This document shows, one piece after another, positions 5,941-48,256 of a stretch of 64,000 nt of DNA. Origin of the DNA: Flavobacteriaceae bacterium. Lineage in GTDB: Bacteria > Bacteroidota > Bacteroidia > Flavobacteriales > Flavobacteriaceae. Where the stretch lies: the NCBI GenBank assembly GCA_029238125.1, contig JAQWGQ010000005.1:62001-126000 (forward strand). The letters are read 5' to 3'. The translations under genes and the position numbers were made by a program. Position 1 is the stretch's first letter; each line of letters starts with the position of its first letter. Below the pieces are notes generated by a model. That model saw only the letters and a list, made by a program, of their open reading frames with translations. It searched no databases and was not told the origin of the DNA.

Positions 5941-6945
5941 TTGAACTCTCTACAAGACATTTTAAAAGACATTCAAGAAAGACGTTTTTCTCCTGTATAT
6001 TTTTTAATGGGAGCAGAGCCATACTTTATTGATCGAATCGAGAAAGAGCTGTATCACAGTGTCATTTCAGAAGAAGAACGTGCATTTAATCAATCGATAC
6101 TATACGGAAAAGACACCTCGGTTGATCAAATCCTAGATGCAGCCAAACGGTTTCCGATGATGGCAGAACATCAGCTTGTGATTGTTCGTGAGGCACAAGA
6201 ACTTTCTCGAGTCATTGATCAGCTGGAGAGTTATGTGAGCAATCCCCAGCCATCAACAGTCCTAGTTGTTTGTTACAAGTACAAATCCATTGATAAGCGA
6301 AAAAAACTCTACAAAGCTTTACAACAACACGCCGTTTTGTTTGAGAGCAAGCAACTTTATGAAAATCAAGTTCCAGATTGGATACAAAGGTGGGTAAAGA
6401 ACAAAAAGCGAACCATAAACCTAAAGGCATCGCACCTTTTGGTTGAGTGCTTGGGGACTCATTTGAGTGCAATCGAACAATCCCTTGAAAAACTCCTTCT
6501 TCTGGTAGATCACGATCATGAAATTACCGAAAATCACATCGAAGAGCACATTGGGTTTAGCAAGGACTTTAACAATTTTGAGTTGCGAAAGGCCCTGGGG
6601 ACTGGAAATGTTGCTCACGCACAACGGATCTGTCATTACTTCACACTGCATCCTCGTCAGCATCCGATTATTGTAACGCTTTCCACTTTACATTTGTTTT
6701 TTATGCAACTGCTGCAATATCATGGCTTGGAAAATCACAACTCGAATCATGTTTCTCGGGTGCTTGGGATTCGCCCTTTTGTTGTAAAAGAATATCAAGT
6801 TGCAGCAAAACGTTATCCCATGAAATCCATTTCCTTTATACTTGACAAAATTCGAATTGCCGATATGAAATGTAAAGGCCTAGGGGTTGGCTTAATTTCT
6901 GAAAAAGCTGTTTTGAGACAATTGATTAACGATATCGGTGGTTAG
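5941..6945 (+). CDS. holA: DNA polymerase III subunit delta
   Basis: The delta subunit is the wrench of the clamp loader: it opens the beta sliding clamp. The protein is 334 aa, as expected for HolA. The start MNSLQDILKDIQERRFSPVY, then YFLMGAEPYFIDRIEK (where AAA+ proteins would have a P-loop) and FPMMAEHQLVIVREAQEL are characteristic of bacteroidotal HolA. The start codon is TTG: the next ATG lies inside the conserved LMGAEPYFI strand, so TTG is likely real. It is divergent from the HsdR_N gene by 22 bases, and its last 4 bases overlap the 3' end of the convergent E1 gene. Confidence 0.9.
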   Translation: MNSLQDILKDIQERRFSPVYFLMGAEPYFIDRIEKELYHSVISEEERAFNQSILYGKDTSVDQILDAAKRFPMMAEHQLVIVREAQELSRVIDQLESYVSNPQPSTVLVVCYKYKSIDKRKKLYKALQQHAVLFESKQLYENQVPDWIQRWVKNKKRTINLKASHLLVECLGTHLSAIEQSLEKLLLLVDHDHEITENHIEEHIGFSKDFNNFELRKALGTGNVAHAQRICHYFTLHPRQHPIIVTLSTLHLFFMQLLQYHGLENHNSNHVSRVLGIRPFVVKEYQVAAKRYPMKSISFILDKIRIADMKCKGLGVGLISEKAVLRQLINDIGG

Positions 6946-9332
6946 CTGAGTTTCGGAAACTGTTTGGGGTCGAATTCATGCATCATTTCATATGCAGTTT
7001 CAATGATATCATCAAGACTAGGTTTCGAAAAGTAGTCTCCATCTGAGCCATATGCAGGGCGATGTGCTTTGGCTGATAAAGTTTTGGGTTTGCTGTCTAA
7101 TAGCGGAAATATATGTTGCTTTTCAAGTAGTTCATTCAAGATATAAGCAGTTCCACCCCCTGGAACGTCCTCATCAACAATCAACAAACGATTTGTTTTT
7201 TCTACACTTTTTCGAATGTCGTTATTCAAGTCAAATGGTATCAGAGATTGAATGTCGATAACTTCAGAATCGATTCCCATTTTATGCAACTCTTCCGCTG
7301 CTTCAGCTACGATTCGCAAGGTTGATCCATAGGAAACAAGGGTGATGTCATTTCCTTTTCGCAAAGTTTCAGTGGTTCCAAGTGGCACACAAAACTCCCC
7401 CAAATTGTTGGGAAGTCTTTCTTTTAATCGATAGCCGTTTAAAGATTCAATGACAAGTGCTGGATCATTTCCCTTTAGAAGGGTGTTGTACATACCCGCA
7501 GCTTGGGTCATATTGCGCGGAACGAGGATAAACATCCCACGAAGGTTATGTACCAAGCCACCCATTGGAGATCCAGAATGCCATATTCCTTCCAGTCGGT
7601 GTCCTCTAGTGCGAACGATGAGTGGACAGACTTGTTTTCCATTTGTGCGATAGTGTAAAGTCGCCAAGTCATCACTCATAATTTGTAGGGCATACAATAC
7701 ATAATCGAGGTACTGAATCTCTGCAATTGGACGGAGTCCACGAAGAGCCATTCCAATTCCTTCACCAATAATCGTTGCCTCACGAATTCCACGATCTGCT
7801 ACTCGCTCAACTCCAAAAGTGGATTGCAATCCTTCTAGTCCTTGATTGACATCTCCGATTTTGCCAGTGTCTTCACCAAAAACGAGGAGTTTACTGTTTT
7901 TCTCAAACAATGCTTTAAAGTTGTCCCGAATAATGATACGACCGTCAACTTGCGTGGTATGGTCGTCATAGGTCACGTTAATTGGATCCACTTGCAAAGA
8001 GGACGTCTGGGTTTCGTTGTAGAGATTGCTACTGAATTTTGGCTGTATTTGTTCAAAATAACGTTTTGGCCACAATTGCAACTCTTCTGATTGTGAGCTT
8101 GGATGATGTCGCATGATCCGAAGAGATTTTCGAGCAAGAGATGCAATTTTTTTGCGGTTAATCGATTTGTCTTTAATCAGTCGATTTGCTTCTTTTATTA
8201 AATCTTGATTTCCACATGCAGCCAGACATTCAAGGAGCTGTTGTGCTTCTTTAATGATGGGCTTTAAACTGGCTTTCCAAGCGTCATCTTTTGCTTGCTT
8301 TGCTTGTTGTTGAGTTGATTTTTCAATCTCATCAAGCTCGGCTTCCGTGGCAATTTTGCTGTTTAAAATCCAATCTCTAAATTTTCGATTACAATCGTTT
8401 TCTTTTTCCCACTCTAGTCGATCCTCAGATTTGTATCTCTCATGCGAACCAGAAGTTGAATGTCCTTGCGGTTGGGTGAGTTCGGTTACGTGAATAAGCA
8501 CAGGTACATGATGGGTTCGGGCAAGTTCTCCTGCTTTTTGAAAGGTGTGAATCAAGTTTGGATAATCCCAACCCTTAACTGTAAAAATCTCAAAACCCGC
8601 TTTAGTTTTACTTCTTTGAAATCCAGCTAGTGCTTCCGATATACTCCCCTTGATCGTTTGATAACTGTTATCCACGGAAATACCATATTCATCATCCCAT
8701 ACGCTAATTACCATCGGAATTTGATGAACACCAGCAGCATTTAATGACTCAAAAAAGAGTCCCTCACTTGTACTTGCATTCCCAATTGTACCCCATGCCA
8801 CTTCCTTGCCATTTACAGAAAATTGGGTGTCGTGAAAGACCTCTTCCTTTCTGTATAGCTTGGAGGCCAACGCAAGACCTACAAGGCGTGGCATTTGCGC
8901 AGCTGTACAGGATACGTCAGAACTCGAGTTGTACCGCTCGGTTTGACGCAACCATGTTCCGTTTTTGTCGATCAAGTCTGTGTTGTAATGCCCTCCCATC
9001 TGTCGACCAGAAGACATGGGTTCATGCTCTGGATCGGTGTGTGCATACAAACCAGCGAACAATTGTTGAGGGGTTAGACTATCGATGGCCATCATAAAGG
9101 TTTGATCTCGATAGTAACCAGAACGAAAATCTCCTCTTTGAAAGGCCTTGGCCATGGCAATCTGCGGAAGTTCTTTACCATCTCCGAATATGCCAAACTT
9201 TGCTTTGCCCGTTAAAACTTCTCTTCGACCCAATAAACTCATCGCTCTACTCAGGCAAACAATCTGGTAATCTTTTAGGATTTCTTCCTTAAAAGATGTA
9301 AATGAAATTTCTGAAGTGAGTTCGTTTATCAT
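6942..9332 (-). CDS. 2-oxoacid dehydrogenase E1, fused alpha and beta subunits
   Basis: A thiamine-diphosphate enzyme of 796 aa that decarboxylates a 2-oxoacid and passes the acyl group to an E2 lipoyl protein. Residues ~1-350 are the alpha part, with EPMSSGRQMGGHYN, WGTIGNASTSEGLFFESLN and VWDDEYGISV (the ThDP-binding segment, GNAS in place of the usual GDG). Residues ~460-796 are the beta part, with LLVFGEDTGKIGDVNQGL, EGIGMALRGLRPIAEIQYLD and a transketolase-C domain. A helical linker joins them. E2 and E3 are not in the window. Branched-chain oxoacids are a likely substrate, but pyruvate cannot be excluded. Its 3' end overlaps holA by 4 bases. Confidence 0.88.
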   Translation of the reverse strand: MINELTSEISFTSFKEEILKDYQIVCLSRAMSLLGRREVLTGKAKFGIFGDGKELPQIAMAKAFQRGDFRSGYYRDQTFMMAIDSLTPQQLFAGLYAHTDPEHEPMSSGRQMGGHYNTDLIDKNGTWLRQTERYNSSSDVSCTAAQMPRLVGLALASKLYRKEEVFHDTQFSVNGKEVAWGTIGNASTSEGLFFESLNAAGVHQIPMVISVWDDEYGISVDNSYQTIKGSISEALAGFQRSKTKAGFEIFTVKGWDYPNLIHTFQKAGELARTHHVPVLIHVTELTQPQGHSTSGSHERYKSEDRLEWEKENDCNRKFRDWILNSKIATEAELDEIEKSTQQQAKQAKDDAWKASLKPIIKEAQQLLECLAACGNQDLIKEANRLIKDKSINRKKIASLARKSLRIMRHHPSSQSEELQLWPKRYFEQIQPKFSSNLYNETQTSSLQVDPINVTYDDHTTQVDGRIIIRDNFKALFEKNSKLLVFGEDTGKIGDVNQGLEGLQSTFGVERVADRGIREATIIGEGIGMALRGLRPIAEIQYLDYVLYALQIMSDDLATLHYRTNGKQVCPLIVRTRGHRLEGIWHSGSPMGGLVHNLRGMFILVPRNMTQAAGMYNTLLKGNDPALVIESLNGYRLKERLPNNLGEFCVPLGTTETLRKGNDITLVSYGSTLRIVAEAAEELHKMGIDSEVIDIQSLIPFDLNNDIRKSVEKTNRLLIVDEDVPGGGTAYILNELLEKQHIFPLLDSKPKTLSAKAHRPAYGSDGDYFSKPSLDDIIETAYEMMHEFDPKQFPKLS

Positions 9333-9380: not shown

Positions 9381-12161
9381 TCAAAACCAACTTCTCGTAA
9401 ACAAAGAGAGAAGTTGACTGGTTTGTATTGAGAGTGTAAACCGAATTTTAGACGGATATGCCTTGTCATCAATCTCCCAACCTAGGTTTGAATACAAAGG
9501 GAAATATAACCCCAAGTAGTCCTGTATCAGGTTTAAGTTAAGCCCAGCATCGTAAATAAAACGATTTTTTTGTCCTCGATTTTTAACCAAACCTATGTCG
9601 CTGTAAATTTCAAGTCCACGCCAAAGGGTTGTACTTAAGTTGGCAGATATCATCCATTGATTGACCATTTGAATCGGAATAAATGATTTAAATCCCCCTT
9701 CTGCAAGTAGATATTGCTGACTAAAAAAACCACTTGTTTCGGAACGACCCAAAAGGTTGTACGTAAAGGAATAATCATTGACTCTTGAGATGCCAAAATC
9801 AAAATTTCCACTGTTGTTTTGATCAGAAAGTAATCCCATAAAAAATCGAAAGGTGTATTGTTTTCCTTCATTGTAGTATTTTCGATTCCGATAAGAGGCA
9901 GAAAACTTTGTAAACGAATCTCCCATTTGTAAAGTTGCACCGAATCCCCTCGATGAAGAGCTGCTACTATTGGAATAAGTGTAAGAAAGTGAGCTGTTAT
10001 ACGATCCGTCTAAAAGCTTTTTATTTTGATCTTCCTGAAACAAAGAGACCAGTTCAAGTCCAACAATGGAGTGTTTATTACCAGTCAAACCTTCGGGTCG
10101 GAACGTTGCATTGATTTGTGGGTTGAAACGATAGTATCTTTGATCTGAATTAAAGTGGAAAGACTCTATGCCAAATCCGTATGAAATATTGGTTAGCTTT
10201 TTTTTCTGAAAATAGGATCGGTGTCGGATGGAGAACGAACCGCTTAAGCTCATCTCTTTATTTCCGTACTGTGGAGAGAAAAACACGGTTGTTGGTTGTC
10301 TGAGCGTAAGCCCATTGTGAATCACCATTCCCATTAAAACACCATCATAGGCATTGTATGTCAAACTGGGAGCAATATATGTTGTCGCGTAATGGGAGGA
10401 AGGGATGTCTTCAAACAAACGAAGCTTTTTATCTCGTTTTGCAAAACTGTTATTAAGACAAATATTGTTATTATTCGTGTTGACCTCTAGGACCAGTTGA
10501 TTGGGGTTTAAAACGATTTTGTCAACCTGCGTTTGATCAAATGACAAGTGTTGTTTCTCGACCCCGCCTGGAAGCCAAACAGACGAAACGAGCTGATGTT
10601 TTGAATAGCTGTTTAGTCTCATTGGGTTTTGCGCTTTTGTATGGTTTGTCAATTCAACGTGAACCTGATTTTCAGATTTCCCAATTTGGCGAATTTCGTA
10701 ATCTGTTAGTCCATTGTCAGCACAATACCCTTGATAAAACCATTTGGCGCGTCCTTCAAAAAATAATTCGAAATGGTCTTGAATCGTTAGCGGATTTAGG
10801 TTGTTTTTGCTTGTGAATAGATTAAAGATAAACGCATCAACTTGTTTTTTGCTTTCTGTCTCCTCTAAGATTTTGATTCCCATAGCTGAACGGGACCGCA
10901 AAGCGATTTTACGATTGTATTTTGTCACGTCCTCACTTGGCATGAGTAAGGGCTGTGCAAGGTTTCTGCGATACACAAAAGCAGCTTGTAAATTGGTTTT
11001 AAAGCTAAATGGAGTTTGCGCAAATTGATAGGTCGATAGCGGAGGGAATTTGGACAGATTCCCGATCAATCGCAGTTCAGGGAAATAGGTTTCTACATAC
11101 CGCATAAATAGGTAATGGGATAGACCATCAGCAATCCACCTATTTTGACGGTAATTCTCAGGAAATTTGGACTGAACCAATTTACGCAGGAGAATTTGAA
11201 TGGCCTTTAGTTCAAACTGTTCCTGTTTTGGGATCGGGCGGAAGGTGTTCAGTAGCAAATCAAAGCCTACAATTGGATTCTGATTGTAAAACTTCGAATC
11301 GATTAAAAAGTATTCATTGCTCAGGTTTCCGAAAAAACTCTCTGCAAATTTTTGCATTCGTTTTGTGATTTCGACACCAATTTGGACTGTGTCCAAATTG
11401 TCTGCCATATCTGTCACGATCTCAAAGTCAGACGAACGAATGGACTTATAATCGTTCTTTTTTTTTAAATAAAACTCCAAATCACCCTGAATTTGTCCCT
11501 TTACTTGCCAACAAGCGTTTTGCAAATCTCCCTTGATTGAGGGAATGATGTCATAATCTTCTGGAAAACAAAGGGTGAACTTTGTAGATGAACGCAACGC
11601 AGTCCGATCGTTAAATCCATAGTTAGAGTCGAGATTCCACCGCCCATCGAAGTCCTGATTTACAAATTGCAAAAACCCATTTCTAAAGCTGATTTCATCA
11701 TTATTATCGATTCCATACCCTGTAAAATCATCGGCAGGCAGTTTTACGATGTAAGAAGCGGAAAATACAATCGAATCTTTTGGTTGAATCGGGTGTGTCA
11801 AATGAATCGCAACAATGTCTATTTGTTCATCTAAACGATGCCAATTCAAACTGCCATGTGCAGTACGAAAGCTATGGATCTTGGTATTTCCTTTTTCATC
11901 CGATTTGGATTTTTCAAATTGGAAATTGAATTCTTGTGCAAGTTTGACAGCCAAAGGCGTGGAAGTATTCGCATAAGCATGATTCCAATCATAAAGATAT
12001 AAGGTGTCCAAAGCATTGCTACCTGTGTTGGTGTAGCGAAATAACTGTTTTACTTTGATAAGTCCCCTCAGTGGATCAACTTGTGCATCAATTTCATTGT
12101 CTTGCTGTGCGAAGCAAAACGCTATTTGAAAAATCAAGATGAGGCAAAACCGTTTTTTCAA
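9381..12161 (-). CDS. M1-peptidase-like periplasmic domain plus outer-membrane beta-barrel
   Basis: A 926-aa exported protein. Residues 1-18 are a signal peptide (MKKRFCLILIFQIAFCFA). Residues ~20-500 resemble the N-terminal and catalytic domains of M1 (gluzincin) aminopeptidases, including WNLDSNYGFNDRTAL and RWIADGLSHYLFMRYVE, which lines up with the second zinc-ligand helix (WLNEG...). The first zinc motif HExxH is absent: the aligned region around residues 315-330 has no His-Glu pair. The last ~330 residues alternate polar and aromatic residues and end in SWF, a typical outer-membrane barrel ending. It is probably catalytically inactive and may be a barrel-anchored surface or assembly protein. 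It sits 2 bases after the LOG-family gene. Confidence 0.75.
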   Translation of the reverse strand: MKKRFCLILIFQIAFCFAQQDNEIDAQVDPLRGLIKVKQLFRYTNTGSNALDTLYLYDWNHAYANTSTPLAVKLAQEFNFQFEKSKSDEKGNTKIHSFRTAHGSLNWHRLDEQIDIVAIHLTHPIQPKDSIVFSASYIVKLPADDFTGYGIDNNDEISFRNGFLQFVNQDFDGRWNLDSNYGFNDRTALRSSTKFTLCFPEDYDIIPSIKGDLQNACWQVKGQIQGDLEFYLKKKNDYKSIRSSDFEIVTDMADNLDTVQIGVEITKRMQKFAESFFGNLSNEYFLIDSKFYNQNPIVGFDLLLNTFRPIPKQEQFELKAIQILLRKLVQSKFPENYRQNRWIADGLSHYLFMRYVETYFPELRLIGNLSKFPPLSTYQFAQTPFSFKTNLQAAFVYRRNLAQPLLMPSEDVTKYNRKIALRSRSAMGIKILEETESKKQVDAFIFNLFTSKNNLNPLTIQDHFELFFEGRAKWFYQGYCADNGLTDYEIRQIGKSENQVHVELTNHTKAQNPMRLNSYSKHQLVSSVWLPGGVEKQHLSFDQTQVDKIVLNPNQLVLEVNTNNNNICLNNSFAKRDKKLRLFEDIPSSHYATTYIAPSLTYNAYDGVLMGMVIHNGLTLRQPTTVFFSPQYGNKEMSLSGSFSIRHRSYFQKKKLTNISYGFGIESFHFNSDQRYYRFNPQINATFRPEGLTGNKHSIVGLELVSLFQEDQNKKLLDGSYNSSLSYTYSNSSSSSSRGFGATLQMGDSFTKFSASYRNRKYYNEGKQYTFRFFMGLLSDQNNSGNFDFGISRVNDYSFTYNLLGRSETSGFFSQQYLLAEGGFKSFIPIQMVNQWMISANLSTTLWRGLEIYSDIGLVKNRGQKNRFIYDAGLNLNLIQDYLGLYFPLYSNLGWEIDDKAYPSKIRFTLSIQTSQLLSLFTRSWF

Positions 12162-12163: not shown

Positions 12164-12850
12164 CTAAAAGTTTGGTCCTGTGTCTGTATCGGAATAATAC
12201 TGCTTGAGTAAATCGATGACTTCATCTGCCGTATCAACACAGATGAATATATCTAAATCTCCTTCACTTATGGTGTTGTTTTGTGCTAAGAGGGTTTGTT
12301 TTAGCCAGTCTATGAGTCCACTCCAAAACGAAGTTCCTACGAGGATAATTGGGATTTTTTTGATTTTAGAGGTTTGAATAAGCGTGATTGCCTCCATCAA
12401 TTCGTCGAGAGTGCCAAATCCGCCAGGAAGAACAACAAATGCTTGTGCATATTTGACAAACATCACCTTACGAACAAAGAAATAGTCAAAATTGATCATT
12501 CGATCCTTGTCGATATACTTGTTGTGATTTTCCTCAAAGGGAAGGTCAATGGTTAGCCCCACTGAGGAACCTCCAGCTTCTTGCGCTCCTTTGTTTGCAG
12601 CTTCCATAATCCCAGGGCCTCCACCTGTGATAACTCCAAATCCAAGACCAACAATTCGCTGAGCGATTTCACTCGCCAATTTGTAATTGGGGTCTGTGTT
12701 TGGCGTTCGAGCTGATCCAAAAATAGAAATACAGGGGTTATGAAGTCCCATTTTTTCAAATCCCTCGACAAATTCACCCATGATTTTGAATAACATCCAT
12801 GAGTTTTTTGTCGTTAATTCATTCCAACCTGACGCATAATTTTTATCCAT
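12164..12850 (-). CDS. LOG-family (TIGR00730) nucleotide 5'-monophosphate phosphoribohydrolase
   Basis: A 228-aa Rossmann-fold protein of the lysine-decarboxylase-like LOG family. Members cleave cytokinin ribotides or AMP to the free base and ribose 5-phosphate. The two diagnostic motifs are GGGPGIMEAANKGA near residue 78 and PGGFGTLDELMEAI near residue 142. The physiological role in non-plant-associated bacteria is uncertain. It lies between uvrA (3-base gap) and the M1-like gene (2-base gap) on the same strand, so the three may form one transcript. Confidence 0.87.
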   Translation of the reverse strand: MDKNYASGWNELTTKNSWMLFKIMGEFVEGFEKMGLHNPCISIFGSARTPNTDPNYKLASEIAQRIVGLGFGVITGGGPGIMEAANKGAQEAGGSSVGLTIDLPFEENHNKYIDKDRMINFDYFFVRKVMFVKYAQAFVVLPGGFGTLDELMEAITLIQTSKIKKIPIILVGTSFWSGLIDWLKQTLLAQNNTISEGDLDIFICVDTADEVIDLLKQYYSDTDTGPNF

Positions 12851-12853: not shown

Positions 12854-15682
12854 CTATCTATTAAGTTCGTATTTCAAATATTTTGCCGTGTGAGAGTTTA
12901 TTGACGATAAAATTTCTTCTGGGGTACCTGTACACACGACCTGCCCACCTTTTGCACCGCCTTCTGGCCCAATATCAATGATATGATCCATGGTTTTAAT
13001 CACATCTAGATTGTGTTCAATCACCAAAACGGTATTACCCTTGTCAACGAGTTTTTGAAGAACTTCAAGCAAGACCCGAATATCATCGAAATGTAAACCT
13101 GTGGTTGGCTCATCTAAGATATAAAATGTTTTTCCAGTATCTTTTTTGGAGAGTTCTGTCGCAAGCTTAATACGTTGGGCTTCTCCTCCTGAGAGGGTTG
13201 TCGACTGTTGTCCCAAGCTGATATAACCGAGTCCAACATCTTGTATGGTTTTGAGTTTTCTGTAAATTTTAGGATGAGATTCAAAAAACAAACAAGCTTC
13301 ATTAATGGTCATGTTTAGTACATCATTGATCGTTTTATTTCGATACCTAACTTCCAAGGTTTCTCTTGTGAATCGTTTTCCTTGACAATCGTCACAGGGG
13401 ACATAGACGTCGGGTAAAAAGTTCATCACTATCGTTTTTAAGCCCGCACCTTGACAACTTTCACAACGGCCACCTACCACATTAAAACTAAATCTTCCGG
13501 GTTTGTACCCACGAATTTGCGCTTCTGGAGTCTTAGTAAATAGACTTCTTATTTCGCTAAATACGCCTGTATAGGTTGCTGGATTACTTCTCGGAGTACG
13601 CCCAATAGGAGATTGATTGATATCGATAACTTTGTCGATGTGTTCTAATCCGTCAATCGATTTGTATCCAAGGGGTTCTTTTACGCCATTGAAAAAGTAT
13701 TTGTTGAGAATGGGGTAGAGGGTTTCGTTGATTAAGGTGGATTTACCACTTCCAGAGACACCCGTAACTCCAATCATGGTGCCGAGGGGAAATTTTACAT
13801 CGATATTTTTCAGATTATGTCCACTGCAATTGCGCAGTTTCAAATCTTTTCCACTCCCTTTTCGTCGAGAGCTTGGAACGCTGATTTGTTCCTTTCCGTT
13901 TAAAAACGCGGCTGTAATGGTTTTTAACTTCTTTACCTCTTTTGGTGTTCCTTGTGCGATCACTTCTCCGCCATTTCTACCTGCTTTTGGTCCAAGGTCA
14001 ATCAAGTGGTCTGCACGCTCCATCATCTCCTTGTCATGCTCTACCACGATAACGGTGTTACCAATATCACGTAACGATAGGAGAGAGTCAATCAGTCGGT
14101 CATTGTCTCTTTGATGTAGTCCAATACTCGGTTCGTCGAGTATATACAAAACACCAACCAGTTGTGCGCCAATCTGGGTTGCTAATCGTATTCGTTGCGC
14201 TTCCCCTCCTGACAATGATTTTGAACTGCGGTGAAGTGACAGATAGTCGAGGCCAACGTCCAATAGGAACTGAATACGCTTTTGAATTTCTTTAATGACT
14301 TCCGAAGCAATTGCCACTTGTTTCTCAGAGAGATTTGATTCCAGTTTGCCTACCCAAAGTGCAAGCTCACTTAAGCCCATCGATGAGACCTCAGCAATGT
14401 TTTTACCTGCCAGTTTAAAGCACTTTGCCGCTTCGTTTAAGCGCGAGCCATGACAAGAAGGGCACTTGATCTCATCCATAAACGATTTAGCCCAACGTTT
14501 AAGTGATGCAGAATGCGCCTCTTTAAATTGGTTCTCGATAAAAGGAACAATGCCATCATAGTCGATTGCGTATTCTCGAGTCAACCCAAGCGTTTTAGAG
14601 ACCACAGAAAACTGTTCGCTTCCTCCGTGAAGGATCACCTCGATAGCATCTTTCGGGATCGAATGAATGGGGTCCTGCAAGGAAAATTTGTAACGGGCTG
14701 CAATACTTTCAAACTGTTTGAATGTCCAGTTGCTCTTATGACTTCCAGCAGGTTTTATCCCCCCAGCGTGAATCGATACAGAATCGTCGGGGATTACCTT
14801 GTTTAGGTTGACTTCATACTTTACGCCAAGTCCGCTACAACTTGTACACATCCCCTTGGGAGAATTAAATGAAAAGCTATTTGGTTCAGGAGAAGGATAG
14901 GCAATTCCAGTGCTTGGGCACATCAATTTTCGACTGAAGAATCGATTTTCCTCACTGTCTTGCCCCCAAAGAATAATGGTGTCTTTTCCGTGATACATCG
15001 CAGTTTGCAAACTCTCTTTAAGCTGTTTTTGTGAACTTGCTTTTTCACTGTCAATCAACAAGCGATCAATCACAATTTCAATGTCGTGGAGCTTGTAGCG
15101 ATCCACTTTATACCCTGGTTTTAAATCGACAAATTCTCCGTCAACTCTCACTCGAGTAAACCCTTGTTTTAAGATTGTTGAAAACAATTCGCGATAATGT
15201 CCTTTTCGAGAACGCACAACAGGTGCCAGTAAAATGACTTTTTGGGCATTAAAATCATTGTGAATAAGAGAAACAATCTCATCATCACTGTATTGAACCA
15301 TCAACTCTTGGGTGGCGCTGCTGTAGGCATTGGCAGCTCTTGCATAGAGTAAACGGAAAAAATCATACAATTCTGTGATTGTTCCGACTGTAGATCTTGG
15401 GCTTTTACTCGTTGTTTTTTGCTCAATCGCAACGACGGGTGATAAACCATCGACTTTATCAACGTCTGGTCGCTCCATACCGCCAATAAATTGACGTGCA
15501 TAGGCGCTAAAGGTTTCGATATAACGACGCTGTCCCTCGGCATGAAGGGTGTCAAATGCAAGAGATGATTTGCCGCTGCCCGATAATCCTGTAATCACGG
15601 TCAGTGCATCACGTGGAATAGAAACATCTATGTTTTTTAGATTGTGTTCTCGAGCACCTTTAACAACTATTTTTTCTTTCAT
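12854..15682 (-). CDS. uvrA: excinuclease ABC subunit A
   Basis: UvrA finds DNA lesions and loads UvrB in nucleotide excision repair. The protein is 942 aa and has two ABC modules: Walker A GLSGSGKSSLAFDT near residue 32 and GVTGVSGSGKSTLINET near residue 640, each paired with a LSGGEAQRI signature and LDEPSIGLH / LDEPTTGLH. Zinc-binding cysteines occur as CPSCHGSRL and as CESCQG...CDDCQG. The start chosen is the ATG at 15682 (MKEKIVVKGAREHNLKNI); a TTG two codons upstream is possible but less likely. It leads a minus-strand group with the LOG gene and the barrel gene. Confidence 0.96.
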   Translation of the reverse strand: MKEKIVVKGAREHNLKNIDVSIPRDALTVITGLSGSGKSSLAFDTLHAEGQRRYIETFSAYARQFIGGMERPDVDKVDGLSPVVAIEQKTTSKSPRSTVGTITELYDFFRLLYARAANAYSSATQELMVQYSDDEIVSLIHNDFNAQKVILLAPVVRSRKGHYRELFSTILKQGFTRVRVDGEFVDLKPGYKVDRYKLHDIEIVIDRLLIDSEKASSQKQLKESLQTAMYHGKDTIILWGQDSEENRFFSRKLMCPSTGIAYPSPEPNSFSFNSPKGMCTSCSGLGVKYEVNLNKVIPDDSVSIHAGGIKPAGSHKSNWTFKQFESIAARYKFSLQDPIHSIPKDAIEVILHGGSEQFSVVSKTLGLTREYAIDYDGIVPFIENQFKEAHSASLKRWAKSFMDEIKCPSCHGSRLNEAAKCFKLAGKNIAEVSSMGLSELALWVGKLESNLSEKQVAIASEVIKEIQKRIQFLLDVGLDYLSLHRSSKSLSGGEAQRIRLATQIGAQLVGVLYILDEPSIGLHQRDNDRLIDSLLSLRDIGNTVIVVEHDKEMMERADHLIDLGPKAGRNGGEVIAQGTPKEVKKLKTITAAFLNGKEQISVPSSRRKGSGKDLKLRNCSGHNLKNIDVKFPLGTMIGVTGVSGSGKSTLINETLYPILNKYFFNGVKEPLGYKSIDGLEHIDKVIDINQSPIGRTPRSNPATYTGVFSEIRSLFTKTPEAQIRGYKPGRFSFNVVGGRCESCQGAGLKTIVMNFLPDVYVPCDDCQGKRFTRETLEVRYRNKTINDVLNMTINEACLFFESHPKIYRKLKTIQDVGLGYISLGQQSTTLSGGEAQRIKLATELSKKDTGKTFYILDEPTTGLHFDDIRVLLEVLQKLVDKGNTVLVIEHNLDVIKTMDHIIDIGPEGGAKGGQVVCTGTPEEILSSINSHTAKYLKYELNR

Positions 15683-15728
15683 GAGCAAACATGCAAGATA
15701 CTTTTTTAAATCGATTAAAGAAACAGTT

Positions 15729-35923: not shown

Positions 35924-36523
35924 CTATCCCTTCTGTCGTTCCTCAAGTACGCGAACCACATCGTTTAAGGTATGCCCTTTGGCCTGTAATAAAATCATCA
36001 AGTGAAACAACAAGTCTGCACTTTCGTTTAAAAACAAATCGGAATTGTTGTCTTTTGCTTCGATGACGGTTTCTACGGCTTCCTCCCCTACCTTTTGCGC
36101 AATCTTATTGATGCCTTTGGCAAACAAACTCGCCACATAGCTTTTGTCAGAAGGGTTGTTTTTGCGATTCGCAATTACCTCTTCCAAGGCAGTCAAAAAG
36201 CCATAGTTAGGTGTATTGCTATCGCCCCAACACGTATCATCTCCCTTGTGACAAGTGGGGCCTTTGGGCTTGGCCTGAATCAATAGGGCATCACGATCAC
36301 AATCTACCGCCATATTGACTAGGGTCAATACATGACCACTTTCTTCACCTTTTGTCCAAAGGCGTTTTTTGGAACGACTGAAGAAAGTGACTTGTCGCGT
36401 CTCTTGTGTTTTGGTAACGGCTTCTTGATTCATATAGCCCAACATCAGTACACATTTGGTGGTTGCATCTTGCACGATGGCGGGAACAAGTCCGTCTGGG
36501 TATTTGCTAAAATCGATTGTCAT
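35924..36523 (-). CDS. hisIE: phosphoribosyl-AMP cyclohydrolase / phosphoribosyl-ATP pyrophosphatase
   Basis: Steps 2 and 3 of histidine synthesis in one 199-aa protein. The N-terminal HisI part has [26 protein letters not shown] and the zinc site CDRDALL with [13 protein letters not shown]. The C-terminal HisE part (about 105-199) has [20 protein letters not shown] and [13 protein letters not shown]. Last gene of the his operon, overlapping hisF by 4 bases. Confidence 0.96.
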
Positions 36524-37272
36524 CGCATTGGTATTTTGTGTAATCGCAATTCGTTTTTAAGTTCTGGTATGCTGATTTCTTTAAAGTGAAATACACTTGC
36601 TGCCAAAGCCGCATCTGCATTTCCCTCGACAAAGGTATCAATAAAGTGTTGCATGGTTCCTGCACCGCCAGAGGCAATGACTGGAACCGTGACTGTTTCG
36701 CTGAGTTGCCGTAGTGCGGTATTGGCAAACCCTTGTTTGGTTCCGTCGTGATCCATAGAGGTAAACAGCAGCTCCCCTGCACCTCGATCTACGGCTTCTT
36801 GCGCCCATGGAAACAATTTTCGTTCGGTGGGAATCTTACCGCCAACCAAGTGAACAACCCATTCCGAAGCAATTTGTTTGGCGTCAATCGCTACAACGAC
36901 ACATTGTGTACCAAACCGATTGGCAACCTCGCTAATGAGTTCAGGACGGCGAACAGCAGCAGAGTTGATCGAGACCTTATCCGCGCCATTGTCCAACAGG
37001 ATTCCTACATCGTCCATTGCATTGATGCCACCGCCCACAGTAAAAGGAATATCAATGGCTTGGGCAACATTACGGACGAGCTTGGCAAGGGTTTTTCGTT
37101 TTTCTTCTGATGCTGAGATGTCGAGAAACACGAGCTCATCTGCCCCTTCCTCTGCATAACGCTGAGCAAGTTCAACAGGATCTCCTGCATCCCGAAGGTT
37201 CACAAAATTGACTCCCTTGACCGTGCGACCATCTTTGATATCTAAACAGGGTATGATTCGTTTTGTGAGCAT
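36520..37272 (-). CDS. hisF: imidazole glycerol phosphate synthase, cyclase subunit
   Basis: With HisH it turns PRFAR and ammonia into imidazole glycerol phosphate and AICAR. It is a 250-aa (beta/alpha)8 barrel. [20 protein letters not shown] carries the first catalytic Asp (Asp11), and [13 protein letters not shown] the C-terminal phosphate site; DHDGTKQGF holds the second acid. A 1-base gap separates it from hisA. Confidence 0.96.
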
Positions 37273-37273
37273 A

Positions 37274-38002
37274 TCAGTTTTGATTGAGTTGATAGGTTTC
37301 CAATTCTTCTAGCCCGATTTTTCCTTCGTATATGGCTTTACCCACAACTGCTGCCGAACATCCAAGTTCACGACAAGCGTATAGGTCGTCCATGGTGCTC
37401 ACCCCACCTGAAGCGATCAAAGACAAGCCCTCAACCTCATTGAGTAGCTCTCGGTATAGTTCTAAAGACGGACCCTCTAGCATCCCATCTTTGGCGACAT
37501 CTGTACACAAGACGTTTGTAAATCCTTTTTTTGTGAAATCCTGAATAAACTCCAACACATCAAGTCCAGAGTCTTGTTCCCAGCCATGAGTGGCAATACG
37601 ACGGTTTTTGGCGTCTGCCCCTAAGATGAGTTGATCTGCACCATATTGATCCAACCACTTCAATACAAGTTGGGGTTCGACCACAGCGATACTTCCAAGG
37701 GTGACCTGTGTAGCGCCACAATCGAAAGCAGTTTGCAAATCACGCTCCGACTTGATTCCACCGCCAAAGTCTACTTGTAAGGCGGTTTGGGTAGCAATGG
37801 CCTCTAAAACCTTCGCGTTGACAATATGCTTGGCACGAGCACCGTCAAGGTCAACCACGTGTAGGTGTGTCAGTCCAGCCCCTTCAAAGCGTTTGGCAAC
37901 CTCAACGGGGGAATCACTATAAACGGTTTTGGTGTCATAAACTCCTTTGGTTAGACGTACACATTGTCCATCTATGATATCGATTGCAGGAATAATAATC
38001 AT
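37274..38002 (-). CDS. hisA: ProFAR isomerase
   Basis: Isomerises ProFAR to PRFAR in histidine synthesis; 242 aa. The barrel starts [20 protein letters not shown] (Asp8) and has [13 protein letters not shown] and [10 protein letters not shown] phosphate-binding loops and [11 protein letters not shown] with the other catalytic Asp. It overlaps hisH by 4 bases. Confidence 0.96.
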
Positions 38003-38577
38003 AATGACAAAAAATTTTGTAAAAGTTGTGCGCCCATGGCTCCGCTCTTTTCCGGGTGGAATTGGGTGCCATAAAAGTTGTTTTTTGCCATTGCCGCAGC
38101 AAAATTGACGTCATAAAGACACTGTCCAACCGTGTCTTCATTGGGTAGGGCATAATAACTGTGCACCAGATAAAAATGACTGTCGTTTGGGATTTTATCA
38201 AACAACACTCCACTACTCTTCACTTCGTTCCAACCCATATGCGGCACATTGCGTGTGGTCGTAAACCGAACCACTTCGGTATCAAAGATTCCCAAGCCCG
38301 TTGTATTTCCCTCTTCGGAGCTGTTACACATCAACTGCATTCCCAAACAAATGCCCAAAACAGGTTGTGCCAGCTCTGGAATAAGCGTATCCAACTGGGT
38401 ACTTTTGAGTTTTGCCATTGCCGAGCTCGCTTCCCCCACGCCAGGGAAAATAATATGAGAAGCCGATTGAATGGTTTCTGGATCACTTGACAGAGTGGCC
38501 GAAACCCCCAAACGTGCCAAAGCAAAGCGAATGCTCTGGATATTCCCAGCTCCATAATCGATAATGGCTACACTCAT
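37999..38577 (-). CDS. hisH: imidazole glycerol phosphate synthase, glutaminase subunit
   Basis: A class I glutamine amidotransferase that gives ammonia to HisF; 192 aa. Catalytic Cys in [12 protein letters not shown]; His and Glu in [12 protein letters not shown]. Starts [20 protein letters not shown]. Overlaps hisB by 4 bases. Confidence 0.96.
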
Positions 38578-39695
38578 AACTGCCCTTTGGTAGAAGGAAG
38601 AATCAATTTTTCAGGATCGCGCTGAATCGCTGCTTTGATGGCTTTGGCAAAGCTTTTAAAAATCGCCTCGATTTTGTGGTGCTCATTGTGTCCTTCTGCT
38701 TTGATATTCAGGTTGGCCTTTGCCCCATCAGCAAAAGATTTAAAAAAGTGGAAAAACATCTCGGTTGGCATTTTGCCAATCAGCTCACGCTTAAATTTGG
38801 CGTCCCACATCAACCAAGACCGCCCGCCAAAGTCAATGGCGACTTGCGCAAGGCAATCATCCATCGGTAAGCAAAATCCATAGCGTTCGATACCGAGTTT
38901 GTCTGCTAAAGCCATTGAGAAGGCCTCTCCGAGCGCGATAGCAGTATCTTCAATGGTGTGGTGCTCATCGACTTCCAAATCGCCCTTGGTGGTCATTTCG
39001 ATATCAATCCCTCCATGGCGTGCCAATTGATCGAGCATGTGATCAAAAAATGCAATTCCTGTATCAATTGTGCTTTGCCCAGTTCCGTCGAGGTTGAGTG
39101 CAATCGAAATGTCCGTTTCTTTGGTCACACGCTTGTGCGTACACAAGCGTTGACCAGCTTTGAGCATGGTGTAAATTTCACTCCAGTTGGCCGTCGTTAA
39201 AGCAATAGCTGCTTTGGTGGCCTTGCCAGGAGTTTCGGTAAGGCGATCATCGTGTTGAAGCAAAATGCCTTGCGCCCCAAGGTTGACCGCCAATTGCATA
39301 TCGCTCAAGCGGTCTCCGATGACAAAGGAATTTTCTAAATCATAATCCCCAGACAAATAAGCCGTTAACAAGCCCGTTTCAGGTTTGCGCGTGGACGCTT
39401 GATCTGCTGGAAAGCTTTTGTCAATACAGACTTCCTCGAAAATAATCCCCTCGTTTTTCATCGCATCAATCAAATGATTGTGCACAGGCCAAAATTGCTC
39501 CTCCGGGAAGCTATCGGTACCTAATCCGTCTTGGTTGGTTACCATGACAAGGGTATAGTCCAATTCTTTGGCGATACGTCCCAGATAGGTAAATATACCA
39601 GGGTAAAACGTCAATTTTTCAAAACTGTCAAGTTGATAGTCCTCTGGCTCTAGCGCCAGTGTCCCATCACGATCGATAAATAAGACCTTTTTCAT
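38574..39695 (-). CDS. hisB: bifunctional histidinol-phosphatase / IGP dehydratase
   Basis: A 373-aa fusion. Residues ~1-165 are a HAD phosphatase: [10 protein letters not shown] (nucleophile Asp8, Asp10) and [13 protein letters not shown]. Residues ~180-373 are imidazole glycerol phosphate dehydratase with Mn-binding [30 protein letters not shown] and [16 protein letters not shown]. The bifunctional form is that of enterobacteria and many Bacteroidota. Overlaps hisC by 4 bases. Confidence 0.96.
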
Positions 39696-40738
39696 GATGA
39701 CAAGCGATTTAATGTTTCTATCAATATTTGATTTTCCTGGGGTGTTCCAACAGAGAAACGAAGGCAGTTTTCACACCCCACTTGCTTACTGCGGTTGCGC
39801 ACAACGATGTCATTTTCGATGAGTTGAGCATATCGTTTGTTCGCATCATCAACCTGTACCAAAAGGAAATTCGCATCACTCGGATAAACCTTTTCAACAA
39901 AGGAAATCTTCTCAAGCTGTACAAATAGATCATTCCTTTGCGCAATAAGTTGTGTGATTTGCCCTTGGGTTGTATTCCAATCCTCTAGAACAGAAATGGC
40001 ACGCTCTTGGGTCAATGAATTGATATTATATGGGGGTTTGATTTTGTTGAGAATATCGATAATTTCTTCGCTTGCGATACAAATCCCGAGCCGAATTCCC
40101 GCTAGCCCATAGGCCTTGGAAAGGGTTTGGGTGATGATCAAGTTGGGATAGGATGATAATTCCGAAACCAAACTCTTTTGCGTAGAAAAGTCAATATATG
40201 CCTCATCGATCACCACAAGACCAGTAAAAGATTGAAGTAAGTAAATGATGTCCTCTCGGCGAAATGAATTACCACTTGGATTGTTGGGAGAACATAGGAA
40301 TATCGCTTTGGTTTGGGGTGAAATTTGGCGGATAATGTCTTTTGTAACTATCTGAAAATCATCATTTAAAGGAACTTCATCTAAAGAAATACAATTGATA
40401 TTTGCAAGCACGTTATACATGCCATAAGTTGGGGGCATCACAATGATTCTGTCTTGATTTGGAATGCAAAACGCACGAAAAATTAAGTCTAAAACCTCGT
40501 CACTTCCATTGCCGAGAAGCAATTGATTGGCAGTTACCCCTCTATGCCTTGTGATGACTTCTTTTAGCTTTCGTTGTTGCGGATCGGGATAACGGTTTAC
40601 ACCATTGTCAAATGGATTTTCGTTGGCATCCAAATACACAACCTCTCTCTGAACAGGGTCAAATTCGTCCCGCGCCGAGGAATATGGCTGTAAATCAACA
40701 ATGTGTGAGCGGACTAGTTTTTGGATATCAAAACTCAT
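39692..40738 (-). CDS. hisC: histidinol-phosphate aminotransferase
   Basis: PLP aminotransferase for the histidinol-phosphate step; 348 aa. [20 protein letters not shown] at the N-terminus, [37 protein letters not shown] and the PLP lysine in [16 protein letters not shown] identify it. Overlaps hisD by 4 bases. Confidence 0.96.
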
Positions 40739-42018
40739 ATCAAATCTTTTAATCGAAGACTTACTGCATTTTTGTGCGCATACAAGCCCTCGGCATTGGC
40801 CAGGGTTTCTATTGAGGGTCCAAGGTCTTTCAAACCTGTCTCGCTTATCTTTTGAAAGGTAATCGCCTTGAGAAAACTATCCAAGTTAACTCCACTGTAT
40901 TGTTTGGCGTACCCATTGGTTGGTAAAGTGTGATTGGTCCCCGAAGCATAATCACCTGCGCTTTCAGGAGTATAATTCCCAATAAACACCGATCCAGCGT
41001 TGACTACCCCCTTGACAAACATGTCTTCGTTGGCCATACAAATGATATAGTGTTCAGGGCCGTATTCGTTGATAAAAGCAATGGCATCGGATTCAGCAGC
41101 AAAATAAATGGCCGTTGAGTTTGCAAGTGCTTGTGCAGCGATTTCTTTTCTGGGAAGTGCTTCAAGTTGCTTTTGCACTTCATCTTGCACCTTGCTAATG
41201 GTGTTTTGACTCGTGCTGACCAATACCACTTGACTATCTGTCCCGTGCTCTGCTTGTGACAGTAAATCTGCTGCGACATAAGAAGGTACTGCTGTCTCGT
41301 CTGCAACGACCAGCAACTCACTCGGACCAGCGGGCATATCGATTGAAACGCCGTATTGCGTTGCTTTTTGTTTGGCAGCAGTAACATACTGATTACCTGG
41401 CCCCAATATCTTATAAACCTGTGGAATCGACTCTGTGCCAAAGGTCATTCCGCCAATGGCTTGGATTCCCCCGACTTGAAATAAGCGGGTGACACCGCAT
41501 TTATAAGCTGCATAACGGATGGCTGGCGCAAGTTGACCTGATTGATTTGGTGGCGTACACAGTACGATTTCACGACAACCAGCAATGGTAGCAGGAATGG
41601 CAAGCATAAGTATAGAAGAAAACAAAGGGGCTGTCCCTCCCGGGATATAAAGCCCGACTTTCTCAATTGGTCTTTTCTCTTGCCAACATGATACCCCCTC
41701 TTGCACATCAAGCTGTACCCGATCGGTTTGCTGCGCTTTGTGGAAGGCGTAGATATTGTCATAGGCCTTGTCAATCGCAGCTCGTAAATCAGCTGACAAC
41801 TCGTTTTGAGCGCTTTTCAGGTCGGCTGGGTCAACTTCAATGCGCTCGGGTCGATAGCCATCAAACTTCTCGCTATAGGCCTGTATGGCTTGATCGCCTT
41901 GCCGTTGAATTGCGCCAAAGACTTCGTCCACAACAGGCAAGACGTCGTCTAAAGATGCCGTTGGACGCATGGTTAGCTCGTTCCATTGATCGGTAGTTGG
42001 ACTCAAAACCGTTTTCAT
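40735..42018 (-). CDS. hisD: histidinol dehydrogenase
   Basis: Zinc and NAD-dependent, two-step oxidation of histidinol to histidine. From the ATG at 42018 it is 427 aa. Features: GLYIPGGTAPLFSSILML, GPGNQYVTAAKQ, MPAGPSELLVVADE, LSQAEHGTDSQ and the catalytic YGPEHYIICMA; the ANHTLPT-like GTNHTLPTNG lies near residue 360. The start chosen overlaps the hisG stop (ATGA), as with the other his genes; an earlier in-frame ATG at 42042 would overlap hisG by 28 bases. Confidence 0.95.
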   Translation of the reverse strand: MKTVLSPTTDQWNELTMRPTASLDDVLPVVDEVFGAIQRQGDQAIQAYSEKFDGYRPERIEVDPADLKSAQNELSADLRAAIDKAYDNIYAFHKAQQTDRVQLDVQEGVSCWQEKRPIEKVGLYIPGGTAPLFSSILMLAIPATIAGCREIVLCTPPNQSGQLAPAIRYAAYKCGVTRLFQVGGIQAIGGMTFGTESIPQVYKILGPGNQYVTAAKQKATQYGVSIDMPAGPSELLVVADETAVPSYVAADLLSQAEHGTDSQVVLVSTSQNTISKVQDEVQKQLEALPRKEIAAQALANSTAIYFAAESDAIAFINEYGPEHYIICMANEDMFVKGVVNAGSVFIGNYTPESAGDYASGTNHTLPTNGYAKQYSGVNLDSFLKAITFQKISETGLKDLGPSIETLANAEGLYAHKNAVSLRLKDLI

Positions 42019-42875
42019 AAGACCATTTTTTCTACGGGGCAAACCAAAATATCTTGCGCACCAGCTGCTTTTAACTCGTCGATGACTTCCCAGAACGTCC
42101 CCTCATTAACGACAGAGTGAAGTGAACTCCACCCTGGTTCGGCCAAAGGCAATACCGTAGGAGATTTTAATACGGGGAGTATAGACGATATCTTGTCAAT
42201 ACTCTCATTGGGTACGTTCATCAAAATATACTTTGACTGACGTCCTTTCAGCACAGATTGAATACGAAACTGCAATTTTTTTAAGATGTCATTCTTTTCA
42301 ACACTCAAGGTACTGCTGGCTGCGAGAACAGCTTCGGATTTAAACAACACCTCGACTTCTTTAAGGTTATTTTTAAACAACGTAGAGCCACTGGAAACAA
42401 TATCGCAAACCGCGTCAGATAAACCGATATTCGGAGCAATTTCGACAGAACCATTGATGATGTGAAGTTCAGCGTCAATCCCTTTTTCTGCAAGAAACCC
42501 TTTCACGGTGTTTGGATAAGAAGTCGCGATTTTCTTCCCTGTCAAGCTTTCAATACCCTTGTAGATATCCTCTTTTGGAATTGCGATCGATACCCGACAT
42601 TTCGAAAATCCTAACTTCTCTTTGATGGAGATATCGTCTCCTTTTTCAACCAGTAAATTTTCGCCGATAATCGCAATATCAACGACTCCATCACGGAGAT
42701 ACTGGGGGATATCCCCATTGCGTAAGTAGAAAATTTCCATAGGGAAATTACGTGCGACGGCTTTTAACTGGTCCTTGCCATTATCGATAGAAATTCCACA
42801 GTCATTGAGGAGTTTCAATGATTCATTATGTAGTCTTCCAGACTTTTGAACGGCGATGTGTAACTTTTTTTTCAC
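42015..42875 (-). CDS. hisG: ATP phosphoribosyltransferase, long form
   Basis: First and rate-setting step of histidine synthesis: ATP plus PRPP to phosphoribosyl-ATP. It is 286 aa, so the long HisG with a C-terminal regulatory ACT-like domain (about residues 210-286) and allosteric inhibition by histidine expected. IAVQKSGRLHNESLKLL, DIAIIGENLLVEKG, and the PRPP loop DIVSSGSTLFKNNL are visible. First structural gene of the operon, 22 bases after the attenuator hairpin. Confidence 0.95.
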   Translation of the reverse strand: MKKKLHIAVQKSGRLHNESLKLLNDCGISIDNGKDQLKAVARNFPMEIFYLRNGDIPQYLRDGVVDIAIIGENLLVEKGDDISIKEKLGFSKCRVSIAIPKEDIYKGIESLTGKKIATSYPNTVKGFLAEKGIDAELHIINGSVEIAPNIGLSDAVCDIVSSGSTLFKNNLKEVEVLFKSEAVLAASSTLSVEKNDILKKLQFRIQSVLKGRQSKYILMNVPNESIDKISSILPVLKSPTVLPLAEPGWSSLHSVVNEGTFWEVIDELKAAGAQDILVCPVEKMVL

Positions 42876-46073: not shown

Positions 46074-46859
46074 TTATGATGTTTTGGAATATCCTTTCAT
46101 AATCCCGCGTTGTGAGTCCCGAATAAATTGTAAAATCTCATCTCTTTCAGACGAAACCTCCATTTCTGCTTCGATGATTTCCACTGCCTGGGTATTGTTG
46201 TAACTTTTTTGGTAGAGGATTCGATAAATATTTTGAATCTCTCTAATTTTTTCACTTGTAAAACCACGACGACGAAGCCCTACAGAGTTGATCCCTACGT
46301 AGGAGATAGGTTCACGTGCGGCTTTGACAAAAGGCGGGACATCTTTTCGGACCAAAGACCCACCAGCGATAAAAGAGTGACTTCCCACAGAACAAAACTG
46401 ATGGACAGCCGTCATCCCTGCCAAAATCACATGGTCGCCAATGGTGATATGCCCAGCCAGTGTGCTATTATTGGAAAAAATACAATGGTTACCGACGATA
46501 CAATCATGTGCGATGTGAGAATAGGCCATAACCAGGCAATTTTCACCAATTATTGTTTTCCCTCTTGAGGAAGTTCCTCTATTTATGGTTACACATTCCC
46601 GAATGGTGGTATTGTCCCCGATATCGGCTGTAGAGTCTTCACCATTAAACTTTAAATCTTGTGGGACGGCGGAAATTACGGAACCGGGAAAAATCGAACA
46701 ATTTTTTCCAATGCGTGCACCTTCCATAATCGTAACGTTTGACCCAATCCAAGTTCCTTCTCCAATTTCAACGTTTTTGTCAATGGTTGTAAAGGGTTCA
46801 ATGACGACATTTTTGGCAATTACGGCTCTTGGGTGGACGTATGCAAGCGGTTGATTCAT
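46074..46859 (-). CDS. lpxA: UDP-N-acetylglucosamine acyltransferase
   Basis: First step of lipid A synthesis, adding a 3-hydroxyacyl chain from ACP to UDP-GlcNAc. 261 aa, a left-handed parallel beta-helix: hexapeptide repeats (IEPFTTIDKNVEIGEGTWIG onward, to about residue 190) followed by a helical C-terminal domain. His in MAYSHIAHDCIVGNH matches the catalytic base region. Overlaps lpxC-fabZ by 4 bases. Confidence 0.93.
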   Translation of the reverse strand: MNQPLAYVHPRAVIAKNVVIEPFTTIDKNVEIGEGTWIGSNVTIMEGARIGKNCSIFPGSVISAVPQDLKFNGEDSTADIGDNTTIRECVTINRGTSSRGKTIIGENCLVMAYSHIAHDCIVGNHCIFSNNSTLAGHITIGDHVILAGMTAVHQFCSVGSHSFIAGGSLVRKDVPPFVKAAREPISYVGINSVGLRRRGFTSEKIREIQNIYRILYQKSYNNTQAVEIIEAEMEVSSERDEILQFIRDSQRGIMKGYSKTS

Positions 46860-48256
46860 ATTTTAACTTGATTTTTCTTGACAATTTGTGCCATCATCTC
46901 CGCTTCTGTGGTCAATCGACCTCGACTATATGCATAAGCTTGCATGTGGCAGATTCCCCTTCGGATTGGAGACAGGAGTTCCAATTTAAAAACAAGGGTA
47001 TCGCCAGGAACTACGGGGTGCTTGAACTTGGCGTTCTCTATTTTCATAAAAAAAGTGAGATAGTTTTCTGGATCGGGAACGGAATTGAGAACCAATACCC
47101 CACCAGCTTGTGCCATTGCCTCGATTTGAAGTACACCTGGCATCACAGGTTGACCTGGAAAATGTCCCTGAAAAAAAGGTTCATTCATGGTTACACTTTT
47201 GACAGCTATGACATGCTTTTTACTGATTTCAAGGATCTTATCAACCAACAAAAAAGGAGGTCGATGAGGTAAAATGTCCATAATCTGATTGACATCTAGA
47301 GCTGGCTCAGCGTTTAAGTCATAATTGGGAACGTGATTTCTCTTCTCTTCCTTGATGATTTTGGCCATTTTTTTGGCAAACTGAGTGTTGACTGCATGGC
47401 CAGGTTTTGAGGCGATGACCTTTCCGCGAATTCGTGTTCCAATCAATGCCAAATCTCCAATCACATCCAATAGTTTGTGACGTGCTGCTTCATTGGGATA
47501 ATGAAGGGTAAGGTTGTCTAGAATTCCATTGGGTTTTACAGATATCGATTTTTTATTAAATGCTTTTCGTAAGCGATCCATTGTTTCTTCGGACAATTCT
47601 TTGTCAACATAGACAATGGCGTTGTTGAGGTCCCCACCTTTGATCAGACCACTTTCCAAGAGGTTTTCAATTTCGTGAAGAAAGCTAAATGTACGCGCAT
47701 TGGCAAACTCATTTTTGAATTGGCTAAGAGTTTTCAGACTTGCATTTTGTGTACCAAGAACTTTTGTGCCAAAATCCACCATAGTCGTAACTTCATAGTT
47801 GTCAGCGGGCAACAAGGTAATTTCACTTCCCGATTCATCACAAGTGTAGGTGATATTCTCTTTGACGACATATTCCTCACGATTTGCATTAAGTTCTTTG
47901 ACTCCGACTTTGTCAATCGCTTCGACAAAAAATTTGGATGAACCATCCATAATTGGAGGTTCAGAGGCATTTAGCTCGATAAGTACGTTGTCAACTTCAC
48001 AGCCAACAAGGGCTGCTAAGACGTGTTCACAAGTTTGGATAGTAACGCCGTTTTTTTGGATACTTGTTCCTCGTTTGGTATCTGCAACATGCTGAGCAAG
48101 GGCCTCAATAATCGGGCTGCCTTCCAGATCGATGCGTTGAAAAGCATAGCCATGGTTGGCAAGGGCTGGTTTAAAAGTCATCGTGACTTCTTCTCCAGTA
48201 TGTATCCCTACCCCTTTGAGAGTAATTGCATTTGAAATTGTAGTTTGTTTAGCCAT
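46856..48256 (-). CDS. lpxC-fabZ: bifunctional UDP-3-O-acyl-GlcNAc deacetylase / hydroxyacyl-ACP dehydratase
   Basis: A 466-aa fusion typical of Bacteroidota. LpxC (about residues 1-305) has zinc ligands in [20 protein letters not shown] and the nearby Asp, and the final [11 protein letters not shown]. FabZ (about 318-466) has [14 protein letters not shown] and the catalytic His/Glu segment [20 protein letters not shown]. The fusion ties lipid A synthesis to fatty acid elongation, which share the hydroxyacyl-ACP substrate. It overlaps lpxD by 8 bases. Confidence 0.95.

Follow-up and report, generated by a model that had tools for sequence, protein, structure and literature searches.

One gene of the window (the whole 64,000-nucleotide stretch of Flavobacteriaceae DNA that was analysed) encodes a protein that profile searches and structure modelling describe as an M1-fold pseudopeptidase joined to a beta-barrel of the outer membrane. 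Its catalytic site has been lost, and inactive copies of the protein are under purifying selection, kept rather than decaying. The barrel and its emptied peptidase scaffold are most likely kept for another job. We infer the location, the binding role and the function of the barrel, and consider it probable that the pseudopeptidase, presumably in the periplasm, is a binding or docking module of the barrel.

The gene product is a widely kept, predicted outer-membrane protein with no function in any library searched and with catalytic relatives nearby in the tree. Live and dead forms of an enzyme on the same barrel offer a natural comparison. Bacteroidota envelope biogenesis still has unassigned parts, for which the protein is a candidate. 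A literature search by title and start of abstract, with subscription papers and preprints outside its scope, found no paper on an M1-barrel fusion.

The M1-fold half and its relatives

By itself, the window protein gave nothing above noise in Pfam and NCBIfam and zero matches among PDB sequences; PF01433 (Peptidase_M1) was among the families without a match in the Pfam scan. Test HMMs were built solely from 58 copies belonging to other families of the class. On the window protein, the HMM of the N-terminal part scored E 2e-42, that of a 190-column M1 core E 1.6e-7 and that of the barrel E 2.3e-63. With 500 shuffled proteins as control, the N-terminal model reached a best E of 4, and no match to the M1-core and barrel HMMs appeared at E up to 10. 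The M1 relation of the window protein exceeds chance.

The N-terminal HMM covers residues 17–150 and 335–548. Residues 150–335 are too diverged for it, so the register at the place of the HExxH motif (residues 322–326) rests on the multiple alignment, which is ungapped there and lies directly upstream of the conserved Trp342. ADGLSHYLFMRYVE starts at residue 344. A full-length AlphaFold2 model made from the window protein and 26 relatives (pLDDT 71.9, pTM 0.68) matches the aminopeptidase ERAP1 over residues 18–624 (3mdj, VIA-align Z 17.4, 3.5 A, 450 residues), and Foldseek places its N part with ERAP1 6mgq (E 7.3e-14). The sequence-only reading of this DNA had proposed M1 signatures in the N-terminal half followed by a barrel ending in SWF. 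Profiles and model agree with it on the fold, the model contains the barrel (Table 1), and the protein ends in ...RSWF. At its other end is a hydrophobic stretch that by eye resembles a type I signal peptide.

Among relatives, PF01433 at E up to 0.1 was found in 18 of 27 Flavobacteriaceae-type rows (best 8e-6). The Peptidase_M1 cut-off was passed by all ten active members scanned (L041, L044, L045, L094, L100, L106, L108, L119, L126 and L134) and by none of five inactive members, two of which match beneath the cut-off.

Table 1. Features of the gene and its product, with window coordinates
Feature	Coordinates	Strand	Basis or remark
Whole gene, M1-fold pseudopeptidase and outer-membrane beta-barrel fusion (predicted)	9381..12161	(-)	926 aa, TTG start, intact frame
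Probable Sec signal peptide, residues 1-19	12105..12161	(-)	By-eye reading; helix 2-15 in model
M1 aminopeptidase fold, residues about 18-590	10392..12110	(-)	HMM and structure model
QILLR, residues 322-326, at the HExxH place of active relatives	11184..11198	(-)	Alignment
Asp345 (in ADG) at the third-ligand Glu (DEG) place of active relatives	11127..11129	(-)	Alignment
Transmembrane beta-barrel, residues about 591-912	9426..10391	(-)	Model: 15 strands and a short one; 16 assumed
Highly conserved barrel stretch, residues 796-826, DYSFTYNLLGRSE..SQQ...AEGGFKS	9684..9776	(-)	Low confidence in both models

Matches at E 1e-5 or better occur in 46 of 60 related genomes, usually one per genome, and, within the window's genus, in 10 of the 12 remaining genomes (assemblies of 1.0–1.7 Mb at 58–86% completeness). 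A 26-row profile matches 312/395 genomes of the order at E 1e-10 and 168/198 genomes sampled from the class at E 1e-40. Both counts are upper limits for the fusion, since other M1 proteins with shorter matches contribute to them. Near-whole-profile matches are present in many families of both samples; judged by sequence, the M1-barrel fusion occurs through the order and the class. In a phylum sample of 148 genomes searched at E 1e-30, no full-length fusion was found outside the class among the matches listed, which stop at or before profile position 655; a diverged barrel could escape detection. In named genomes, 575 relatives were confirmed, of which the best 80 were used; Kordia, Maribacter, Winogradskyella and Flavobacterium are represented. 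No match was found in viral contigs. One M1 relative (L149; genome G598, family f55) is a protein of 525–539 aa with HEVGH and without the barrel, and no barrel was seen by eye in nearby frames.

Affinities of the barrel

The C part of the full model resembles FhaC (4ql0, Z 16.4 over 262 residues), SAM (7vku, Z 16.4 over 279) and TamA (4n74, Foldseek E 4e-6). A barrel-only model from 54 rows has pLDDT 73.8 and pTM 0.72, and both models are weakest at one of the most conserved stretches of the barrel (residues 796–826). These likenesses raise a more specific form of our preferred explanation: the protein may be an Omp85-type translocation or assembly factor, a true Omp85 branch in which the M1 domain replaces POTRA and passes substrates on to the barrel, and the dead form acts purely as a chaperone. 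We hold this to be possible rather than probable. In its favour, the best 50 of 638 Foldseek rows for the barrel alone (E up to 10) are all TamA, BamA/BAM, SAM or FhaC, with a best E of 3.7e-7; the fits are loose, however, with TM by query of 0.40–0.53 and rmsd of about 8–12 A, and VIA-align sets other barrels within one Z unit of Omp85 (Z 15.5), namely a TonB-type siderophore receptor at Z 14.7 and porins, one of them at 14.5.

Profile-profile comparison gives a weak signal. Active barrels reach E 8.9e-4 over 259 columns against six Omp85 loci that fall outside the BamA-like set and that we would guess to be TamL-like, compared with E 0.37 against TonB receptors, but they reach only E 0.19 against 23 BamA-like loci; each value comes from one comparison of small alignments, and pairs of unrelated barrels get to 0.03–0.06 in the same way. 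Flavobacteriaceae-type barrels alone gave no clear signal against Omp85, TonB or DUF5686 profiles, and more diverse sets did. The Omp85 sequence hallmarks also speak against full membership. In the 24 rows printed, the stretch that corresponds to loop 6 has neither RGF nor RGY and reads LGRSE or similar, with RGF or RGW solely at the extreme C-terminus of a few rows, whereas an [LM]RGY-and-length test picks out 23 of 30 Omp85 loci. PF01103 has no match in the window protein or the barrel rows scanned. Pfam scans found no POTRA domain, and residues 488–568 are all-beta in the model; POTRA is not universal in the Omp85/TpsB superfamily. Given the tied VIA-align scores, the missing RGF/RGY and the missing POTRA, we call the modelled barrel Omp85-like without assigning it to Omp85.

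The nearest profile relative found is DUF5686 (PF18939), against which the active barrels score E 4e-5 over 229 columns and controls 0.03–0.49. Below its Pfam cut-off, PF18939 matches 2 of 54 rows with a best E of 0.0014, a level that unrelated families reach too; at the cut-off there was no match, which leaves the window barrel in no Pfam family. DUF5686 itself (loci L294–L310) was found in none of 13 searched genomes from the window's genus and in 9 of 13 others.

The Flavobacterium johnsoniae BAM complex (PMC12611786) was considered as a known system and rejected for want of a sequence link: a search with the family profile yields no PDB chain at E 1 or better, although a BAM entry from F. 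johnsoniae, 9n2f, is in the structure library. In the accessible part of that paper, BamM is a surface lipoprotein with a PPI-fold domain, 'peptidase' as a word start does not occur in the main text, and no such subunit is named.

A chain of the PlpD patatin type, in which the N-terminal domain would cross the barrel and reach the surface, is improbable. Such a chain likewise joins an enzyme-fold domain to an Omp85-like barrel, and the available portion of PMC4104836 describes PlpD as a patatin-type enzyme-barrel chain; here, however, neither Pfam nor the model places a POTRA between the two parts, and an even number of strands in a barrel behind a signal peptide would leave the N-terminus in the periplasm.

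Loss of the catalytic site and retention of the protein

HExxH is intact in 74 of 143 aligned relatives and missing from 69. (This alignment omits the window locus L001, the wider copies L047–L056 and the duplicates L087, L093 and L116.) All 59 relatives from outside the order keep the motif, among them the barrel-less L149; the class rows are best loci and hand-chosen places from the list of 168 matching genomes rather than a random draw. Within the order there are 15 carriers, distributed as f4 1/1, f6 2/2, f11 7/7, f14 2/2, f15 1/2 and f7 2/16. The window's own family, f1, lacks it in 38/38, as do all copies from f2 (2), f3 (1), f5 (11), f12 (1) and f13 (1). Among the 141 long rows (the 143 minus the 351-aa fragment L011 and the 525-aa protein L149), both His, the Glu and the third-ligand Glu are present in 73/73 active rows, and HExxH was found nowhere in the 68 inactive ones. 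The sequence-only reading had reported the first zinc motif as missing, and indeed the 926-aa protein contains no HExxH and differs at each of the zinc-ligand and catalytic places (Table 1). That reading had named homologues with intact HExxH at the same place as a refutation. Such homologues exist, and they strengthen the dead-peptidase idea, because they make this a secondary loss within an M1 lineage.

In 81 Flavobacteriaceae-type copies, the first His place is Lys (77) or Gln (4), and the catalytic Glu is always replaced, by T, I, V, A or S. His persists at the second His place in 19 of them, and the third-ligand place is Asp (75), Asn (3) or Glu (3). By alignment, the 68 inactive rows retain lone catalytic residues at the first His (5 rows), catalytic Glu (2), second His (4) and third Glu (7). 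Inactive families differ from one another at the catalytic positions while single old residues persist, which looks like release from constraint. The window protein has Arg417 and Arg422 in two columns that hold Tyr in 73/73 active rows; by the spacing in LTA4H, one of these Tyr would be the catalytic one. The GxMEN-type motif, searched as G[AGS][MV]E[YNH], was not found in the window protein and reads GGMEY in 67 of 74 active rows.

It is very unlikely that the protein is still an active metallopeptidase with a rearranged metal site. The frequent Asp at the third ligand, the residual second His and three Asp identical in 81/81 copies (Asp115, Asp185 and Asp487) could be read as parts of such a site. 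Against this stand the complete replacement of the first His and the catalytic Glu and, in the window's N-terminal half, the lack of any widely kept His or Cys: over residues 21–560 of the 81 copies, no Cys column reaches at least 90%, and the sole His column that does (column 83) is Glu in the window protein. These columns speak against another His/Cys metal site, a possibility that the sequence-only reading had allowed for. M1 activity can come from elsewhere, since the same genome holds two other M1 genes above the Pfam cut-off.

Inactive copies are under purifying selection. In four same-genus pairs, one of them with dS >1, dN/dS was 0.16–0.21 for residues 20–480, 0.05–0.15 for residues 285–360 around the lost site and 0.09–0.16 for residues 580–926; the value near the lost site is below that of the N half in 4/4 pairs and below that of the barrel in 3/4. 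Mean column conservation in active rows is 0.56–0.69 over residues 20–480 against 0.40 over 640–926, and in inactive rows 0.32–0.47 against 0.49, a contrast that is slight beside the lost site (0.47 versus 0.49) and is drawn between active and inactive sets that differ in diversity. The inactive peptidase half is thus less conserved than the active one, as a decaying gene on its way out would be, but with a frame open over 926 codons, dN/dS of 0.05–0.21 and the wide presence in related and same-genus genomes given above, we reject decay as extremely unlikely and agree with the sequence-only reading that a dead peptidase has been retained.

The gene is flanked by a LOG-family gene (12164–12850) and a gene for a 796-aa dehydrogenase E1 (6942–9332), both named by sequence reading. 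In a set of 106 loci, in which some genomes are possibly counted twice, E1 occurs in 93 and LOG in 89 within the stretches compared, always on the same strand as the barrel gene; E1 is at most 500 bases downstream in 88 and LOG is upstream in 89. The order uvrA (12854–15688), LOG, barrel gene, E1, all on the minus strand in the window, is found in many of the 106 loci, and no functional link among the four genes is evident. Many genomes share both the gene and this arrangement, which makes an assembly artefact unlikely. Elsewhere on the minus strand of the window, histidine biosynthesis genes (His_biosynth, IGPD, aminotransferase and histidinol dehydrogenase) lie near one another at 36520–42042, and a single protein at 46856–48256 combines LpxC and FabA-like domains.

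Active and inactive copies are likely orthologous, as judged from full-length similarity and from gene order at one active locus: the E1 neighbour is common to the active L041 and to the inactive f7 copies L070 and L083. Conserved neighbours were not seen beside the active L044, L045 and L046 within the stretches compared, beside the active class loci, where flanks are short, or beside the inactive L037, L038, L042 and L043. Gene order ties the active L041 to inactive copies, which counts against an origin solely by duplication and death of one copy, although this is one locus and two f7 genomes hold an active and an inactive copy (L078 and L138 in G134, L082 and L137 in G278). In the tree, the active copies of these two genomes cluster with distant families, far from the inactive ones.

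Trees were built by a quick method from hand-picked rows, first 103 of the 143 and then 43 of those. The 103-row tree joins the inactive f1, f2, f3, f5 and f12 rows and L058 (f15) in one group with support 100, and leaves the placement of the f7 and f13 inactive rows, and hence one loss or several, undecided; the 43-row tree puts all inactive rows, including f7 and f13, on one side (SH-aLRT 87). L058 (genome G090) is an inactive copy in f1-like uvrA-LOG-E1 surroundings, unlike the active L072 of another f15 genome, and represents either a transfer or a binning error.

Proposed role and comparison with known systems

In the explanation that we prefer, the binding or docking module, the protein would sit in the outer membrane by a barrel of about 16 strands, with the M1 fold on the N-terminal side. 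Signal peptide and strand number together make a periplasmic position of this domain the more likely one. The original form, which persists across the class, would have had an intact M1 centre and was probably a periplasmic peptidase tethered to the outer membrane. An ancestor of the Flavobacteriaceae and neighbouring families would then have lost the zinc ligands, the catalytic Glu and the M1 tyrosines while keeping the protein. The emptied M1 domain probably serves as a binding or docking scaffold for the barrel's work, comparable to POTRA in Omp85 proteins; since the peptidase fold is still present, peptides or unfolded polypeptides may be held by it. Active copies would cut or remove peptides at the membrane, or process the barrel's cargo, and inactive copies would hold or position them. 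The sequence-only reading had suggested a dead peptidase reused as a surface or secretion-linked protein. Its first part, a dead and retained peptidase, stands; the surface location and the secretion role stay conjectural. A bolder version, in which an M1 peptidase domain stands in place of POTRA on an Omp85-related barrel and a class-wide Bacteroidota outer-membrane machine has changed, along the Flavobacteriaceae line, from tethered peptidase to non-catalytic substrate handler for a pore that assembles or exports proteins, is speculative, and we think it rather unlikely.

Three known groups come closest. DUF5686 (PF18939) has the best profile relation to the barrel that we found, and the literature search found no paper naming it. 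The Omp85/TpsB proteins (BamA, TamA, FhaC and Sam50) are similar in barrel size, in Foldseek ranking and in having a separate N-terminal domain, and differ in the RGF/RGY motif, POTRA and PF01103 match that the window barrel lacks. The accessible part of PMC4104836 lists ten Omp85 subfamilies, with non-POTRA forms that carry WD40, patatin or PF00149 'metallo' domains and none with M1. Peptidase M1 (PF01433; ERAP1, LTA4H and tricorn-interacting factor F3) has the same fold as the one predicted for residues 18–624 of the window protein, which differs from these enzymes in lacking HExxH, the third-ligand Glu and the GxMEN-type motif and in being joined to a transmembrane barrel.
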